From the NCBI GenBank assembly GCA_033763975.1, contig JANRJM010000013.1, positions 124,001-188,000 on the forward strand: DNA of 64,000 nt. The letters run 5' to 3'. Positions 15,734 to 38,600 of this stretch are shown here, piece after piece (the stretch's first letter is position 1; each line of letters opens with the position of its first letter). The notes beneath the pieces are model-generated. The model was given only the letters and a program-made list of their open reading frames with translations, was not told the origin of the DNA and did no database searches. Made by a program: the position numbers and the translations under genes. This stretch comes from Planctomycetota bacterium. Lineage in GTDB: Bacteria; Planctomycetota; Phycisphaerae; Phycisphaerales; UBA1924.

Positions 15734-17590
15734 ATGACGCACCGCGCCCCCGGCTCAGATCGCGCCCGTACGGCCCGCCACGCCCGCGTCCGCCGACGCG
15801 TCGTGGGCGTGCTCGCTGGCGCCGCGGCGCTCACCGCCCTGCTCGCCGCCATGGCCGGCTGGGGCGCCAACGCGCAGCCCCGCGCGGGCGGCGGGCGCGC
15901 GGGCGCGGCGCTCACCGGCGATCGCGCCGTCGCGGAGCGCACCTCGTTCGACGTCGTGACGACCTCCAGCGGCGAACTCGAGGCCCGCGAGCGCATCGAG
16001 ATCCGCAGCCCGCTCGACCAGGAAGCCACCATCGTGCAGATCGCCGCCGAGGGCATCTGGGCGAAGAAGGGCGACCTGCTGATGCAGCTCAACACCGACT
16101 CGCTGCAGCAGAAGATCGACGACGAGTCGCTGCGACTGCGCACCGAGGCCGCCGAGCTCGGCAGCGCCCAGACCGCCTTCAACATCCAGGAGAAGGACAA
16201 CGAGGCGAACATCCGCCAGGGGCAGCTCAAGGTCGATCTCGCGCAGCTCGCGCTGCAGCAGTGGCGCGAGGGCGACGTCAAGAAGAAGCGTCAGGACCTG
16301 ACGCTCGCCATCGACCGCGCCAGCCTCGAGCTCGACCGTCTCGCCGAGCGGTTCCTCCGCAGCCGCGAGCTGCTCGAGGAGGGCTTCGTCAGCAAGGACG
16401 AGTGCGACCGCGACGAGGTGTCGTACATCGAGGCGATCTCCGCGTACAACACCGCGGTGCTCGCCCGCGACGTGTACGAGCAGTACGAGCTCGTCATGGA
16501 GGAGAAGAGCAAGGTCTCCGACGTCGACGAGGCGCTCGCGAACCTCGAGCGCATCCGCCTCACCGCGCTGAACGAACTCGAGAACAAGCGCCAGCGCCTC
16601 GAGGCGCAGAAGGAGCGGGCGACGATCGTCGAACGCCGCCTGCGCAAGCTCGAGGAAAACCGCGCCGCCGCCACCATCCTCGCCCCGAGCGACGGGCTGG
16701 TCGTCTACGCCACCTCGATGGAACGCAACTCCTGGCGGGGCGGGAGCGAGGGCCCCCTGCAGATCGGGCAGCAGGTCTACCCGAACCAGTTGCTCATGAT
16801 CCTGCCCAACACCACCGAGATGATGGCCGCCGTCCGCGTCAGCGAGAGCCTCGCCGGACGCGTCCGCCCGGGACAGACCGCGACCGTGCGCATCGACGCG
16901 GCGGGGGCTCGCACGTTCGCCGCCACCGTCGAGGGCATCGGCGTGATGGCCGAGACCGGCGGCTGGCGCGACCCCAACCTCCGCGAGTACACCGTTCGCC
17001 TGGCGATCCACTCCGCCGGCAACTCCGACCTCAAGCCCGCCATGCGCTGCGAGGCGAACATCACGCTCGACACCGTCACCGACGCCCTCGCCGTGCCCGT
17101 CCAGGGCGTGTTCAGCGACGGGCCCGTCCACTTCGTCTACACGCCCGAGGGCTCGCGCTTCAAGCGCACGCCCATCAAGCTCGGCCGCCGCTCCGACACC
17201 CGCGCCGAGATCATCTCGGGCCTCAACCCCGGCGACGTCGTGCTCATCCGCGAGCCCACCCCCGGCGAGATCCTCACCCGCGATTGGGACACCCAGGTCC
17301 TCACCACCCTCGGCTACAAGATCGGCGCCGACGGCCGCCCCGTCGCCGGCGGCCCGCCCCCCGGCATGGTCCCGCCCGGCGCCGGCCAACGCCCCGACCG
17401 CGCCCGACGTGAAGGTGCCGGTCGCGAAGGCCGCGCCGGCGACGGCGCCCGACCCGCCCCGCAGAAGCCCGCCGCCGAGAAGCCCGCCGCTGAGAAGCCC
17501 GTCGCCGAGAAGCCCACCACCGAGCCTCCCGCGGCGGAGACCCCCGCCGCGACGCCACCTACCCCGACCCCCACGACGCAGCGTCAGTAG
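15734..17590 (+). CDS. Large HlyD-type efflux adaptor with long coiled coil and Pro/Ala/Lys tail
   Basis: This 618-residue protein starts at ATG 15734, 7 bases after AGAGGAG. The signal/TM segment covers residues about 23-50. It is followed by a lipoyl half (LDQEATIVQIAAEGIWAKKG), a very long coiled-coil hairpin (about residues 110-310, rich in E/K/R/L), the second lipoyl half (ATILAPSDGLVVYATS), a barrel domain (MMAAVRVSESLAGRVRPGQT) and a membrane-proximal domain (DALAVPVQGVFSDGPVHF). The C-terminal 90 residues are low-complexity. Adaptors of this kind serve RND or MacB-type pumps, but no pump gene is adjacent, so it is an orphan here. A possible longer start at 15704 overlaps the divergent leader and adds atypical residues. 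Confidence 0.82.
   Translation: MTHRAPGSDRARTARHARVRRRVVGVLAGAAALTALLAAMAGWGANAQPRAGGGRAGAALTGDRAVAERTSFDVVTTSSGELEARERIEIRSPLDQEATIVQIAAEGIWAKKGDLLMQLNTDSLQQKIDDESLRLRTEAAELGSAQTAFNIQEKDNEANIRQGQLKVDLAQLALQQWREGDVKKKRQDLTLAIDRASLELDRLAERFLRSRELLEEGFVSKDECDRDEVSYIEAISAYNTAVLARDVYEQYELVMEEKSKVSDVDEALANLERIRLTALNELENKRQRLEAQKERATIVERRLRKLEENRAAATILAPSDGLVVYATSMERNSWRGGSEGPLQIGQQVYPNQLLMILPNTTEMMAAVRVSESLAGRVRPGQTATVRIDAAGARTFAATVEGIGVMAETGGWRDPNLREYTVRLAIHSAGNSDLKPAMRCEANITLDTVTDALAVPVQGVFSDGPVHFVYTPEGSRFKRTPIKLGRRSDTRAEIISGLNPGDVVLIREPTPGEILTRDWDTQVLTTLGYKIGADGRPVAGGPPPGMVPPGAGQRPDRARREGAGREGRAGDGARPAPQKPAAEKPAAEKPVAEKPTTEPPAAETPAATPPTPTPTTQRQ
17465..17539 (+). repeat. Five 15-bp tandem repeats encoding (K/P)PxxE units
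   Basis: Five in-frame 15-base units encode KPAAE, KPAAE, KPVAE, KPTTE and PPAAE in the adaptor tail. This is a flexible periplasmic, possibly cell-wall-contacting stretch, of the kind also seen in TonB-like proteins. The units have diverged mainly at third positions. Confidence 0.8.
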
Positions 17591-32158: not shown

Positions 32159-34327
32159 CTACCGGGCCTTGCTGTCGCCGCGTGCGAAGATGCTCGCGAC
32201 GTAGTTGAGCACGTCGGTGGCGCTGGTCTCGTTGTACCCGAAGTTCTTGATGAGGCGCTGCTTCACCACGTCGATCTTCTTCTGCGTCTCGTCGTCCACG
32301 ACGCTGCTCACCAGGTTCTTGAGCTTGATCGTGTCGCGCTGGTCCTCGAAGAGCTTGAGCTCGAGCGCGCGGTAGAGGCGCGCGTTCGTGTTGTACTCGA
32401 ACTTCTTCCCGTCGAGCGCCAGCGCCCCGAGGTAGTTCATGATCTCCTGGCGGAAGTCGTCCTTGCGCCCCTCGGGGATGTCGATCTTCTCCTCGATCGA
32501 GCGCATGAGGCGTTCGTCCGGCTCGTCGTCGCGCCCCGTGTACTTGTTCTTCACGCGCTCCTTCTGCGTGTAGGCGCGCACGTTCTCGATGTAGTTCGCG
32601 CACAGGCGGCGGATCGCGTCCTCGTCCGCGCTGATCGCCCGCTGCACCTCGCCCTTGATGATGTCCTCGTACTCCTCCTTCACCACCGACAGCAACTCGC
32701 GGTAGCGCTTGCGCGTGTTCTCGTCGCTGATCAGCGAGTGGTGCGACAGCCCGTGCTCCAGCTCGTTCAGCACCATGAACGGGTTGATCCCCTTGTCCTC
32801 GAGCGCCTGCCGCCCCACCAGCGTGTTGCTGATCTTGTCCTGGATGTACCGGGGCGAGATCCCGTTCATCCCCTCGCGCACCGTCTCTTCCTGCAGCTCG
32901 CGCACGCTGTCCTCGGTGAAGCCCGGGATGCTCTTCCCGTTGTACAGCTTCAGCTTCTGCAGCAGCGTCAGCCCGGCCTTCTTGGGCTCCTCCAGGCGCG
33001 TCAGCACCGCCCACATCGCCGCCACCTCCAGCGTGTGCGGCGCGATGTGGATCCCCTTGATCCGCTGCGTCGAGAAGTCCTTCTCGTAGATCCGCACCTC
33101 GTCGTCCAGGCGGATGTTGTACGGCACGTCGATCTTGATCGTCCGGTCGCGGAACGCCTCCATCATCTCGTTGCTCTGCAGGCGCTTGTACTCCGGCTCG
33201 TTCGTGTGCCCCAGGATCACCTCGTCGATGCTCGTCTGCGCGAACTTCTTCGGCTTGATCGTGTGCTCCTGCGTCGCCCCCAGCAGGTCGTACAGGAACG
33301 CCACGTCCAGCTTCAGGATCTCGATGAACTCGCACACCCCGCGGTTCGCGATGTTCAGCTCCCCGTCGAAGTTGAACGCCCGCGGGTCGCTGTCGCTCCC
33401 GTAGATCGCGATCTTGCGGTAGTTGATGTCCCCCGTCAGCTCCGTGCTGTCCTGGTTCTTCTCGTCCTTGGGCTGGAACGTCCCGATCCCCACCCGGTCC
33501 TTCTCGCTCAGCACGATCCGGCGCACCCGCACGTGGTCCATCACCTTGCGCCAGTCGCCCTCGTAGAACGACATCAGGTCCTCGAACACCTTGCGGCAGA
33601 ACGGGTCGGGCTCGCCCGTCAGGCGCAGCCGCCCCCCGTGGTGCACCGGGCGGTACGCCTCGTTCAGGCGCGCCAGCACGTCCTCGCGCGCCTCGCGCGG
33701 GATCAGCACCAGCGGGTCCTCGTGCATCGGGCACGGGAAGGCGTGCGTCTTCTGCGCCTCGCGCTGCCCCGCGCCGATCGGCGACACCTCGCACTGCTCG
33801 TTCAGCAGCCACGAGAACGAGTACAACGCCCCCTCGGGCGTCCGCGAGTAGTGCTCGATCCCCTTCTTCAGCAGACGCGCGATCGTGCTCTTGCTGCTCC
33901 CCACCGGGCCGTGCAGCAGCAGGATGCGCTTGTCCGTCCCGTACCCCTCCGCCGCCGAGCGCAGGCAGTCCACCAGCTGCATCAGCGCCGAATCAAGCCC
34001 GAAGATCGCGTCCGCGCCGTTGTCGAACGGGTCGGTGAAGAACGTGTACCGCACCACTTCCTTCTTGAACGCGCGGTACCGCTCGCTCCCGTGGCTCATG
34101 ATCGCGTCGTACAGGCGCTGGTACGCGTTGCGCGCCACGCCCGGGTTCTGCGCGCACGTGTCCAGATATTCCCAGAACGTGCCCGTCCAGTGGTGATCCT
34201 GGAACTTGCGCCGGTCCAGGCGCGACTCCACCGCCGCCGCCAGGTCCCGGCCCGCCACCGGCACGCCCGCGCCGCCCGCGTCCCGTGCACCGCCGTCACG
34301 TCCCAGATTCGCGCGATATTCCTGCAT
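32159..34327 (-). CDS. prkA: PrkA-type serine protein kinase (AAA+)
   Basis: This 722-residue protein matches the PrkA family. N-terminal PrkA/AAA domain: [20 protein letters not shown] (Walker A in GPVGSSKS). The central region contains LNEQCEVSP and the long C-terminal PrkA domain. In Bacillus and E. coli (YeaG), PrkA acts in stress and stationary phase together with a SpoVR-like and a DUF444 (YeaH) protein; neither gene is present in this window. The start ATG 34327 ([13 protein letters not shown]) is followed by a disordered Gly/Ala-rich stretch before the conserved part. The leader contains the 22-bp repeats described separately, and the gene is divergent from the hybrid kinase. Confidence 0.93.
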
Positions 34328-34631
34328 GCTCCGGCACTCCCGTGCGAGCCCAAACGGGCTCCCGTGCGAGCCCCCAGGGGCTCCTGTGCGAGCCATCGAT
34401 CCGTCGATCACGCACTTGTCACGATGCCCCGGGGTCCGGAACGCAGCCCCGAGAACCCGATCCGACCATGTCAAGTATCGGCCCGTTCACACCGCCGGGC
34501 CAGAGTCGTTCCGCCCCGACACGCCGAATACCCGACCCATGCTTGTACGCACGAACCCCCGATCCGGTTGTGGTTCCCGGTCCTGCTCACCCTCGCCCGA
34601 CCCGCCGCCGATACTCCCTCACCCGCACCTC
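34328..34631. other. Intergenic region between divergent prkA and hybrid kinase
   Basis: The 304 bases hold the 22-bp repeat array at the prkA end. The rest (34395-34631) has no convincing gene. GC content stays high and I see no clear -35/-10 pair; TTGTCA at about 34427 is the best -35-like hexamer on the + strand but lacks a good -10. Promoters for both divergent genes must lie here. Confidence 0.5.
34337..34394. repeat. Three 22-bp-period hairpin repeats in the prkA leader
   Basis: CTCCCGTGCGAGCCC occurs at 34337-34351 and 34359-34373, and CTCCTGTGCGAGCC at 34381-34394; the repeat period is exactly 22 bases. Between units lie perfect palindromes: GAGCCCAAACGGGCTC (34346-34361) and GAGCCCCCAGGGGCTC (34368-34383). 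On the prkA strand the first unit contributes a GGGAG, 10 bases before the ATG, which may serve as the ribosome site. The array therefore sits in the prkA 5' leader. Confidence 0.85.
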
Positions 34632-36539
34632 ATGCAGCCGCACGCCGACTACATCATCCTGCTGGGGATCTGCGCCGTCGTCGCGGGCGCGGTGGTCCGC
34701 GCGCTCCCGCGCCCCCCCACCCGGCGCGTCCGCTTCGCCGCCGCCATTCTCCTCCTGCTCGTCTTCGCCGCCGGGTTCCCCCTCACCACCCGCGCCGGCC
34801 GGGTCGCGATGGATCAGATCCGGCGCGAGGTCAGCGGCTTCGCCCCCACCTACGCCCAGGAACTCGAACGCCTCGGCCACCACCGCCTCACCGACTCCAC
34901 CCCGCCCGACGACCCCACCTACCTCGCCGTCATCGACGCGCAGGTCCGCTGGCTCCGCGCCAACCCCGGCGTCGCCGACATCTATACCTTCAAACGCCGC
35001 GCCGACCAGGTCATCTACTTCGCCGCCGATTCCGAGACCGACTACGACCGTGACGGGGTCCACCGCGGCCCGCGCGAGTCCCGCACCCCCGTCGGCGAGG
35101 TCTTCCCCGAGGCCGAAGACACCCTCCGCCGCGCCTTCGAGGGTGAGTCGCTCTTCGACCCCCACCCCACCTCCGACCGATGGGGAACGTGGGTCAGCGC
35201 CTATCACCCGATGTACGCGCCCGACGGCTCCGTCGACGCCGTGCTGGGCGTCGACTTCGAAGCTGCCCTCTGGGCCGATCATATCGCCGCCGCACGCCGC
35301 ACCGTCATCCTCTACATCGCCTTCCTCGCCGCCCTCGTCCTCGCCGGCGCCGCCCTGGCCGAACTCCTGCTCGCGTCCGTCGCGCGCGCCCGGCGCGCCG
35401 AACGAGACGCCACCGCCGCCGACCGCGCCAAGACCTTCTTCGTCGCGAACATCTCCCACGAGATCCGCACGCCCATGGCCGCCATCGTCGGCTTCTCCGA
35501 ACTCCTGCTCGACACCTCCCACACCCCCGCGCAGCGCAGCGACTACGCCCAGATCATCCGGCGCAACGCCTCGCACCTGCTCGTCCTGCTCAACGACCTC
35601 CTCGACTTCGCCAAGGCCGACGCCGCCGCACTCCGCATCGAGCGCCGCGCCACGGACCCACGCGACATTCTCGCCGATGTCGTCGAAGCCCTCGCTCCAT
35701 CGGCCGCCCAGAAGCACCTCGAACTGCGCACCAGCGTCTCCCCCGAAGTTCCCCCCCTCATCGCCGCCGATCCCGTCCGCGTCCGCCAGATCCTCCTGAA
35801 CCTCGTCGGCAACGCCATCAAGTTCACCCACGCCGGGCGCGTCGACATCTCCGTCTCCTTCGCCACCCCCGGGCGCCTCCTCGTCGACATCAGCGACACC
35901 GGCATCGGCCTCTCCCCCGAGCAGATCGCACGCCTCTTCCGCCCCTTCGCCCAGGCCGACGACTCCACCACCCGACGCTTCGGCGGCACGGGCCTGGGCC
36001 TCGCCCTCTCCCAGCGCCTCGCCCGCATCATGGGCGGCGACATCGTCGTCTCCAGCACCCCCGGCGCCGGCTCCACCTTCTCCTTCTCCGTCGAGGCCGA
36101 ACCCCTCACCCACCCCCCCGCCGCTCCCGCCGACCCCTCCCGCACCCCCGATCGCCTCGCCGCCCGTGTCCTCCTCGCCGAGGACGGCCCGGACAACCAG
36201 CACCTCTTCACCCACGTCCTCTCGCGCGCGGGCGCCGCCGTCACCGTCGTCGACACCGGTCAGCGCGCCGTCGACGCCGCCCTCGCCGGCGACTTCGACG
36301 TCATCCTCATGGACATGCAGATGCCCGACCTCGACGGCTACGAAGCCACCCGCCGCCTCCGCCGTCAGGGCTACGCACGCCCCATCATCGCCCTCACCGC
36401 CCACGCCCGCGTCGAAGAGCGCGACGAGTGCTTCGCCGCCGGCTGCGACGACCACGCCACCAAGCCCATCGACCGCGCCCGACTTATCGCCCTCGTCGCT
36501 CACTGGCACGAACGCGCCCGCGCCGCCCGCGCCGCGTAG
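34632..36539 (+). CDS. Hybrid sensor histidine kinase
   Basis: This 635-residue protein has two N-terminal TM helices (about residues 8-25 and 34-52). An extracytoplasmic or PAS/Cache-like sensor of about 160 residues follows (with [20 protein letters not shown] and a conserved [14 protein letters not shown]), then a third TM (about 222-245). HisKA carries the phospho-acceptor His276 in [14 protein letters not shown]. The ATPase has N box [16 protein letters not shown]1 [10 protein letters not shown] and G2 [10 protein letters not shown]. The C-terminal receiver has Asp561 in [15 protein letters not shown] and the conserved Lys in TKPID. There is no separate output regulator next to it. Orientation of the sensor is inferred from the TM pattern. 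Confidence 0.92.
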
Positions 36540-37819: not shown

Positions 37820-38523
37820 CCGCCCGCCCCGCCGTCATCCTGCTCTCCGGAGGCCTCGATTCCGCCGTCTCGCTCGGCGTCGCCCGGCGCGACGGGTTCG
37901 CCTGCCACACGCTCAGCGTCGACTACGGCCAGCGTCACCGCGTCGAACTCGCCGCCGCCGCGAAGATCGCCCACGCCTGCGGCGTCGCCTCGCACCGCAC
38001 CATCGCGCTCGACCTCCGGGCCGTCGGCGGATCTGCCCTCACCGGCGACATCGCCGTGCCCAAGGACCGGGCCCACGCGCCGGGCGCGCATCACCACGAA
38101 GCCTCGGACATTCCCATCACGTACGTCCCCGCGCGGAACATGACCATGCTGTCGCTCGCCGCCGGGCTCGCCGAGGTGCTCGGCGCCGACGACCTGTTCA
38201 TCGGGGTCAACGCGATCGATTACTCGGGCTACCCCGACTGCCGCCCGGCGTTCATCCGCGCGTTCGAGCACGCCGCCAACCTCGGCACCAAGCGCGGCGT
38301 CGAGGGCGGGCAGTTCCGCGTCCACACGCCCCTGATCGAGCGCACCAAGGCCGACATCATCCGCCTCGGCGTCGAACTCGGCGTCGACCTCTCGCTCACC
38401 ACCAGTTGCTACGACCCCTCGCCACGCGGGCCCTGCGGGCACTGCGACTCCTGCCTCATCCGCGCCCGCGGCTTCGCCGACGCCGGCCTCCCCGACCCCG
38501 CACTTGCATCATTTCACCTTTGA
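37816..38523 (+). CDS. queC: 7-cyano-7-deazaguanine synthase QueC
   Basis: This 235-residue protein starts at GTG 37816, overlapping the trmB stop. The ATP-pyrophosphatase loop is [15 protein letters not shown], followed by [12 protein letters not shown]. The C-terminus shows the zinc ligands [17 protein letters not shown]. It turns CDG into preQ0 with ATP and ammonia. Its partner QueE follows directly. Confidence 0.95.
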
Positions 38524-38600
38524 CAATTTGACCATTTGCCCATTTGTCCGTTTGCCATTTGCCCCTTTGCCCATTTGCCATTTGCCCCTTTGCCTCTTTC
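38517..38600. repeat. AT-rich (C)CATTTGC-type simple repeat between queC and queE
   Basis: About ten imperfect 7-9-base units (ATTTGCC / CTTTGCC / ATTTGACC) run from the last bases of queC into the start of queE. A 21-base stretch beginning TTTGCCATTTGCC occurs twice, about 23 bases apart, inside it. It is the most T-rich stretch in an otherwise GC-rich window. Confidence 0.8.

Follow-up and report, generated by a model that had tools for sequence, protein, structure and literature searches.

Ribosome-binding-site stem-loops that tune or control the initiation of translation form a general class. The leader of the kinase gene prkA described here shares with this class a Shine-Dalgarno sequence placed in a short potential hairpin, a fixed distance to the ATG and conservation within the genus. 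It departs from the class in that the hairpin segment is tandemly copied, and in being known here from sequence alone. Another comparison is offered by the targets of CsrA/RsmA, such as the Bacillus subtilis hag leader (PMC7652899). As in those targets, the prkA leader displays a GGA in a potential hairpin loop over the Shine-Dalgarno sequence in genomes where csrA is present, with further GGA copies upstream in the species under study; unlike them, it lacks the ANGGA core and its upstream copies are not conserved, whereas the flagellin leader of the same genomes has the core. In SELEX of CsrA sites ACA and GGA were invariant, an ANGGAN hexaloop is described (PMC7652899), and dual-site binding is described for spacings of 10-55 nt (PMC6028588).

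PrkA/YeaG kinases have been linked to stress and growth arrest in other bacteria (PMC3188799). Judging by titles and the opening of abstracts, no study of PrkA regulation in Phycisphaerales was found, nor, by title and abstract, any work on duplicated ribosome sites. The locus analysed here lies in a stretch of 64,000 nucleotides, hereafter the window, and its features are collected in Table 1.

Table 1. Coordinates of the features of the prkA locus in the window
Feature	Position	Strand	Remark
prkA, PrkA/YeaG-family kinase, 722 aa	32159..34327	-	Pfam PF08298, PF06798
Invariant 12-mer GCACGGGAGTGC, potential GCAC-GGGA-GTGC stem-loop with Shine-Dalgarno GGGAG	34334..34345	-	7/7 genus species
Repeat unit 1, start-proximal	34337..34350	-	the unit conserved in the genus
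Palindrome GAGCCC-AAAC-GGGCTC (+ strand), junction of units 1/2	34346..34361		by reading
Repeat unit 2, extra tandem copy	34359..34372	-	14 nt 100% identical; none in nearest relative L031/L004
Palindrome GAGCCCC-CA-GGGGCTC (+ strand), junction of units 2/3	34368..34383		by reading
Repeat unit 3, distal extra tandem copy	34381..34394	-	1 mismatch; none in nearest relative L031/L004
CCGATA, -10-like element of putative prkA promoter GGGCCGATA	34476..34481	-	154 nt before ATG

A local tandem array in the prkA leader

The identity of prkA is given by its AAA_PrkA domain (E 9.6e-88) and its PrkA C-terminal domain (E 1.9e-85). On its coding strand, the minus strand of the window, the leader reads GGCTCGCACAGGAGCCCCTGGG-GGCTCGCACGGGAGCCCGTTTG-GGCTCGCACGGGAGTGCCGGAGC-ATG. 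The initial annotation had placed three units at exact 22-nt spacing in this leader, with two palindromes between them and with the first unit supplying the probable ribosome site of prkA, and each of these descriptions proved accurate. The repeat search recovered the 14-nt core three times at spacings of 22 and 22 nt, the second copy being identical to the start-proximal reference and the third 93% alike; over the full 22-mer, copies 1 and 2 are 86% alike. TRF returned the same array with a score of 88, a period of 22 and 2.6 copies. The palindromes lie where they had been described, and the Shine-Dalgarno sequence GGGAG (34337-34341) stands 9 nt 5' of the prkA ATG.

A search for three equally spaced 14-mers gave two arrays in the actual window, at 34337 and 38533, versus none in any of 40 first-order Markov windows, and among the 55 TRF rows only two other arrays score higher, one of 98 at 17453 and one of up to 112 at 38510. 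The latter, the highest of the window, is a CATTTGCC-type tandem array (38510-38594). It sits where a reading frame begins whose product, judged by eye, resembles a radical-SAM protein.

Short palindromic units near a gene start recall REP/RAYT extragenic palindromes, and a spread of such elements had been proposed for these units. The genome search carried out with the 16-mer GGCTCGCACRGGAGCC led us to abandon this proposal: allowing one mismatch, it gave two matches in the 3,270,817-base genome (two also for the reversed control), and since both fall within the prkA array, the unit is not dispersed but confined to one locus, unlike REP/RAYT. Within the window, up to three mismatches gave 7 matches versus a shuffled mean of 7.44. 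Direct repeats between genes are also known from Beggiatoaceae, where intergenic TAACTGA repeats have a suggested post-transcriptional role; these form 169 sets in one genome (PMC4679880), whereas the prkA leader has a single array of another sequence.

The array is real, correctly placed and local, and two other accounts of it can be given little credit. With 19 contigs and a completeness of 96.95%, the genome is a draft, in which a repeat could be an artefact of assembly; however, the three 22-nt units span 58 nt, which the usual short read exceeds in length, and they differ from one another, making this origin extremely improbable. The units could alternatively be coding, should prkA start at the in-frame ATG at 34396 and carry a 23-residue extension, and in the window species the frame is indeed open up to 34474. 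We hold this to be highly improbable: in three relatives (L004/L031, L007/L032 and L009/L034) an in-frame TGA codon immediately precedes MQEYRA, which supports that start, and a period of 22 nt, not being divisible by 3, makes the units read differently as codons.

Distribution of the array among relatives

PrkA was found in 27 of 41 genomes in the search for relatives, a set that includes the genome of the window itself, and in all seven of the genus. The named collection comprised 145 relatives, of which 80 were kept, most of them bearing titles of Phycisphaerales or other Planctomycetota MAGs. From 107 loci, 92 distinct leaders were obtained by dropping 15 with identical upstream stretches; L001 and L002, which are the same site as the window, and L029, a C-terminal fragment of prkA, were left out of the leader comparison. 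In genome G018, prkA is found in two pieces (L029, L030) on different contigs, most likely through a contig break.

Among the seven genus species compared, the three-unit array is present in the window species only. A single unit is seen in four species; in L033 there are two at a spacing of 17 nt, and in L036 the one unit is accompanied by a degenerate copy at the corresponding place. Among the species with a single unit is L031, the nearest relative on prkA (split support: codon tree 99, protein tree 71). Across the 92 leaders, an exact 14-nt tandem match is limited to the window species and L082, where it lies in coding sequence, and a 13/14 match to five leaders, L033 among them. Given this distribution, units beyond the first appear to have arisen by lineage-specific duplication, and the two distal ones to be extra copies gained in the window lineage by local tandem duplication. 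Apart from the split of L031, the prkA trees are weakly supported: in the codon tree L005 groups with L035 and L038, neither of them among the seven genus genomes, with a support of 41, and is not firmly separated from such outsiders (supports 39-73).

The same comparison bears on the idea that a transcription factor binds the repeats cooperatively as DNA operators spaced by two helical turns. The exact 22-bp period and the dyad symmetry of the units would suit such an array. However, the period is not conserved, because the second copy of L033 lies at 17 nt; neither unit number nor helical spacing is kept in the genus, where single units prevail as described above and no other member has three. 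Moreover, the position of the conserved unit is locked at 6-7 nt from the ATG in 7/7 species, as expected for a ribosome site. The divergent neighbour of prkA, a hybrid histidine kinase (34632-36539, + strand), is not a constant partner either: at 106 other loci with flanks of up to about 1.5 kb, it was matched over 68 residues at L005 and over 95 residues at L090 only. The array on which the cooperative regulator put forward by the initial annotation would act is, like its 22-nt period, not seen in the six other species, and we judge such a regulator very improbable.

A conserved segment with a potential hairpin at the ribosome site

What the seven genus species have in common is the 12-mer GCACGGGAGTGC, found at the prkA start in each of them, with its end 6-7 nt before the ATG and its GGGAG 9-10 nt ahead of it. 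Upstream of the 12-mer, a single column of the 60 ungapped ones in the genus alignment is invariant. The potential stem has 4 bp and a GGGA loop, the Shine-Dalgarno sequence being made of the loop and one stem base. The argument for the hairpin is conservation inside a diverged leader, and not covariation, since a stem that never varies offers none to prove the pairing. The GGGAG portion would stay conserved anyway as a Shine-Dalgarno sequence, and the seven species, sharing descent and an identical 12-mer, do not count as seven independent events.

Around the GGA of the Shine-Dalgarno sequence, a stem score of 4 or more was obtained in 7/7 genus leaders and in 13 of the 74 scored outside the genus; with shuffled flanks, 13.2 of all 81 leaders would be expected to reach it, so that outside the genus the hairpin is at chance level and its extension beyond the genus was rejected. 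Eleven of the 92 leaders were unscored, five for want of a usable start or Shine-Dalgarno match and six because the match held no GGA. Taken singly, the genus sites are not exceptional, 5-23% of the shuffles of each site scoring as well. L035, whose PrkA is 86% identical and thus as close as some genus members, and which is not among the seven labelled genus genomes, is without the 12-mer.

A regulon marked by the 12-mer was also considered and rejected. Elsewhere in the seven genus genomes the 12-mer has four further matches, versus five for the reversed-pattern control. Each of these sites overlaps the frame of another gene, which for one site (L118) is on the opposite strand, and none lies 4-12 nt before the same-strand start of a listed frame of at least 100 aa.

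Upstream elements of the leader

Farther upstream, CCGATA is found in 75 of the 92 prkA leaders, as a raw count that includes at least one row (L082) in coding sequence; G occupies position -1 in 60/75 and T position -21 in 56/75. All seven genus leaders have GCCGATA, which fits the sigma-28/WhiG-type -10 GCCGATAA except for the final consensus A. The flagellar-sigma consensus joins this -10 to a -35 TAAA (PMC8325347; for FliA sites of Escherichia coli, PMC4183435). In the prkA leaders this -35 was not found: only T at -21 is strongly enriched, and AAA does not follow it. All 7/7 genus genomes encode a FliA/WhiG sigma factor, and a shared promoter was not established among the 12 flagellin-type leaders viewed in them. 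No sigma-70 promoter or terminator was found in 34250-34750.

If CCGATA is the promoter, the repeats are part of the 5' untranslated region, which would measure about 142 nt in the window species versus 78-122 nt in the other genus species. The pattern TGGC-N15-17-GCCGATA is about as frequent as its reversed control (5 versus 2 in the window genome, 29 versus 25 in the seven genomes), and is therefore not specific by itself; a genome-wide regulon defined by it was rejected. About 45-95 nt ahead of the ATG a further stretch, TGACAAGT, is kept in all seven genus leaders, taking the form TGATAAGT in one of them and having no evident -10.

Folding of the leader

In local folds, the GCAC/GUGC hairpin appeared in the four species tried, with all 4 pairs in three of them and with three pairs in L032. 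Whole-leader folds, begun at an assumed transcript start just after CCGATA, gave it probabilities of 0.92, 0.72, 0.66, 0.34, 0.18, 0.17 and 0.00, the last value being that of the window species, whose fold is dominated by the far-upstream leader. Exposure of the Shine-Dalgarno sequence at 37 C was 0.80 in L031, 0.67 in L032 and L034, 0.63 in L005, 0.46 in L036, 0.22 in L033 and 0.21 in the window species, so that the two lowest values belong to the two leaders with clear extra copies. For three reasons we do not conclude that the ribosome site is concealed by the repeats. Leaders shuffled upstream behave similarly and separate no species (fraction at or below the observed value 0.08-0.82); exposure depends on the stretch folded, ranging from 0.21 to 0.73 (mean 0.55) over 15 shorter stretches of the window leader; and in-silico removal of one or both extra units has no effect on the long fold, which stays at 0.21 with three, two or one units. 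An effect of the repeats on exposure was accordingly rejected in silico.

These folds also weigh on an RNA switch or thermometer, in which GGCTC/GAGCC pairings within units and GAGCCC/GGGCTC pairings between units would be mutually exclusive and control access to the ribosome site. The sequence allows either pairing to be drawn, the minimum-energy folds contain the stem in which GAGCCC/GGGCTC joins units 1 and 2, and in the fold L033 responds much as a thermometer would, its exposure being 0.02 at 15 C and reaching 0.45 at 60 C. Over the same range, however, the window species merely moves from 0.20 to 0.29, and exposure falls in L005 (0.75 to 0.44) and L036 (0.74 to 0.47); among the other six genus species a clear rise is seen in L033 only. 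As the response to temperature differs among the genus leaders, there is no shared thermometer. The insensitivity of exposure to unit number and the lack of conservation of the array in the genus speak against the switch as well, as does the stability of the 111-nt leader (energy z = -1.79, with 7/200 shuffles as stable). No Rfam family reached the gathering threshold within the window, and a described thermometer or riboswitch family was rejected on that ground. The switch suggested by the initial annotation was thus not upheld, exposure in the window leader not being clearly distinct from that of shuffled leaders, and we consider it very unlikely.

Comparison with CsrA targets

In a CsrA-type control, a dimer would bind the GGA of the ribosome-site hairpin and, in the window species, a second GGA 22 nt upstream, thereby blocking 30S binding. 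Several observations are consistent with this mode of control: CsrA (PF02599) is found above the Pfam cut-off in 7/7 genus genomes, the GGA, which overlaps the Shine-Dalgarno sequence in 7/7 species, would occupy the loop of a potential 4-bp hairpin, the 22-nt distance falls inside the published range for dual sites (PMC6028588), and proven targets without ANGGA exist (PMC6028588). However, the prkA site reads CGGGA, with ANGGA in 0/7 genus sites; in the two extra units the GGA would be partly inside a possible GGCTC/GAGCC stem; and neither the spacing nor the second site is conserved. By its sequence the prkA site could work like a CsrA site, a putative membership, and we regard control of this type as unlikely.

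The flagellin genes of the same genomes supply a point of reference. At the best-scoring flagellin locus of each of the seven (L165-L171), the hairpin CAATC-ACGGAG-GATTG is invariant at the ribosome site and fits an ANGGAN loop, which makes it a candidate CsrA site and counts in favour of the CsrA-type control considered here; the hairpin is missing from the seven other flagellin loci read. In every one of the seven genomes csrA is matched some hundreds of bases upstream of this flagellin gene. The flagellin of the window genome (L166, G000:C1:66741-67154) has one in-frame TAG in its N-domain match, and the best match of the six relatives has none. A more elaborate proposal would have a CsrA-type repressor run prkA translation at its non-canonical hairpin, tied to the flagellar CsrA circuit, with the tandem array strengthening or buffering repression; this appears decidedly unlikely to us. 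If this reading of the array were true, the copy number of the 22-nt unit would be an evolving dial for prkA expression.

Interpretation and significance

The explanation that we favour, and consider probable though by no means secure, combines a genus-conserved ribosome-site hairpin that sets or controls prkA translation with a duplication by slippage proper to one lineage. A short stem-loop, GCAC-GGGA-GUGC in the RNA, would hold the Shine-Dalgarno sequence of prkA partly within its loop and partly next to it and would set or control the initiation of translation; the hairpin is probably a translational tuning or control site. In the own lineage of the window species, the segment GGCTCGCACGGGAG would have been tandemly duplicated twice, most likely by replication slippage. 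The leader would thereby have grown by 44 nt, gaining two Shine-Dalgarno-like decoys as well as palindromes at the junctions. The extra copies may be neutral or provide mild tuning.

The case separates a conserved ribosome-site hairpin from the eye-catching array in which it is embedded, only one of the three units being common to the relatives. If the hairpin controls translation, it would be a candidate site at which PrkA is controlled post-transcriptionally in Phycisphaerales.
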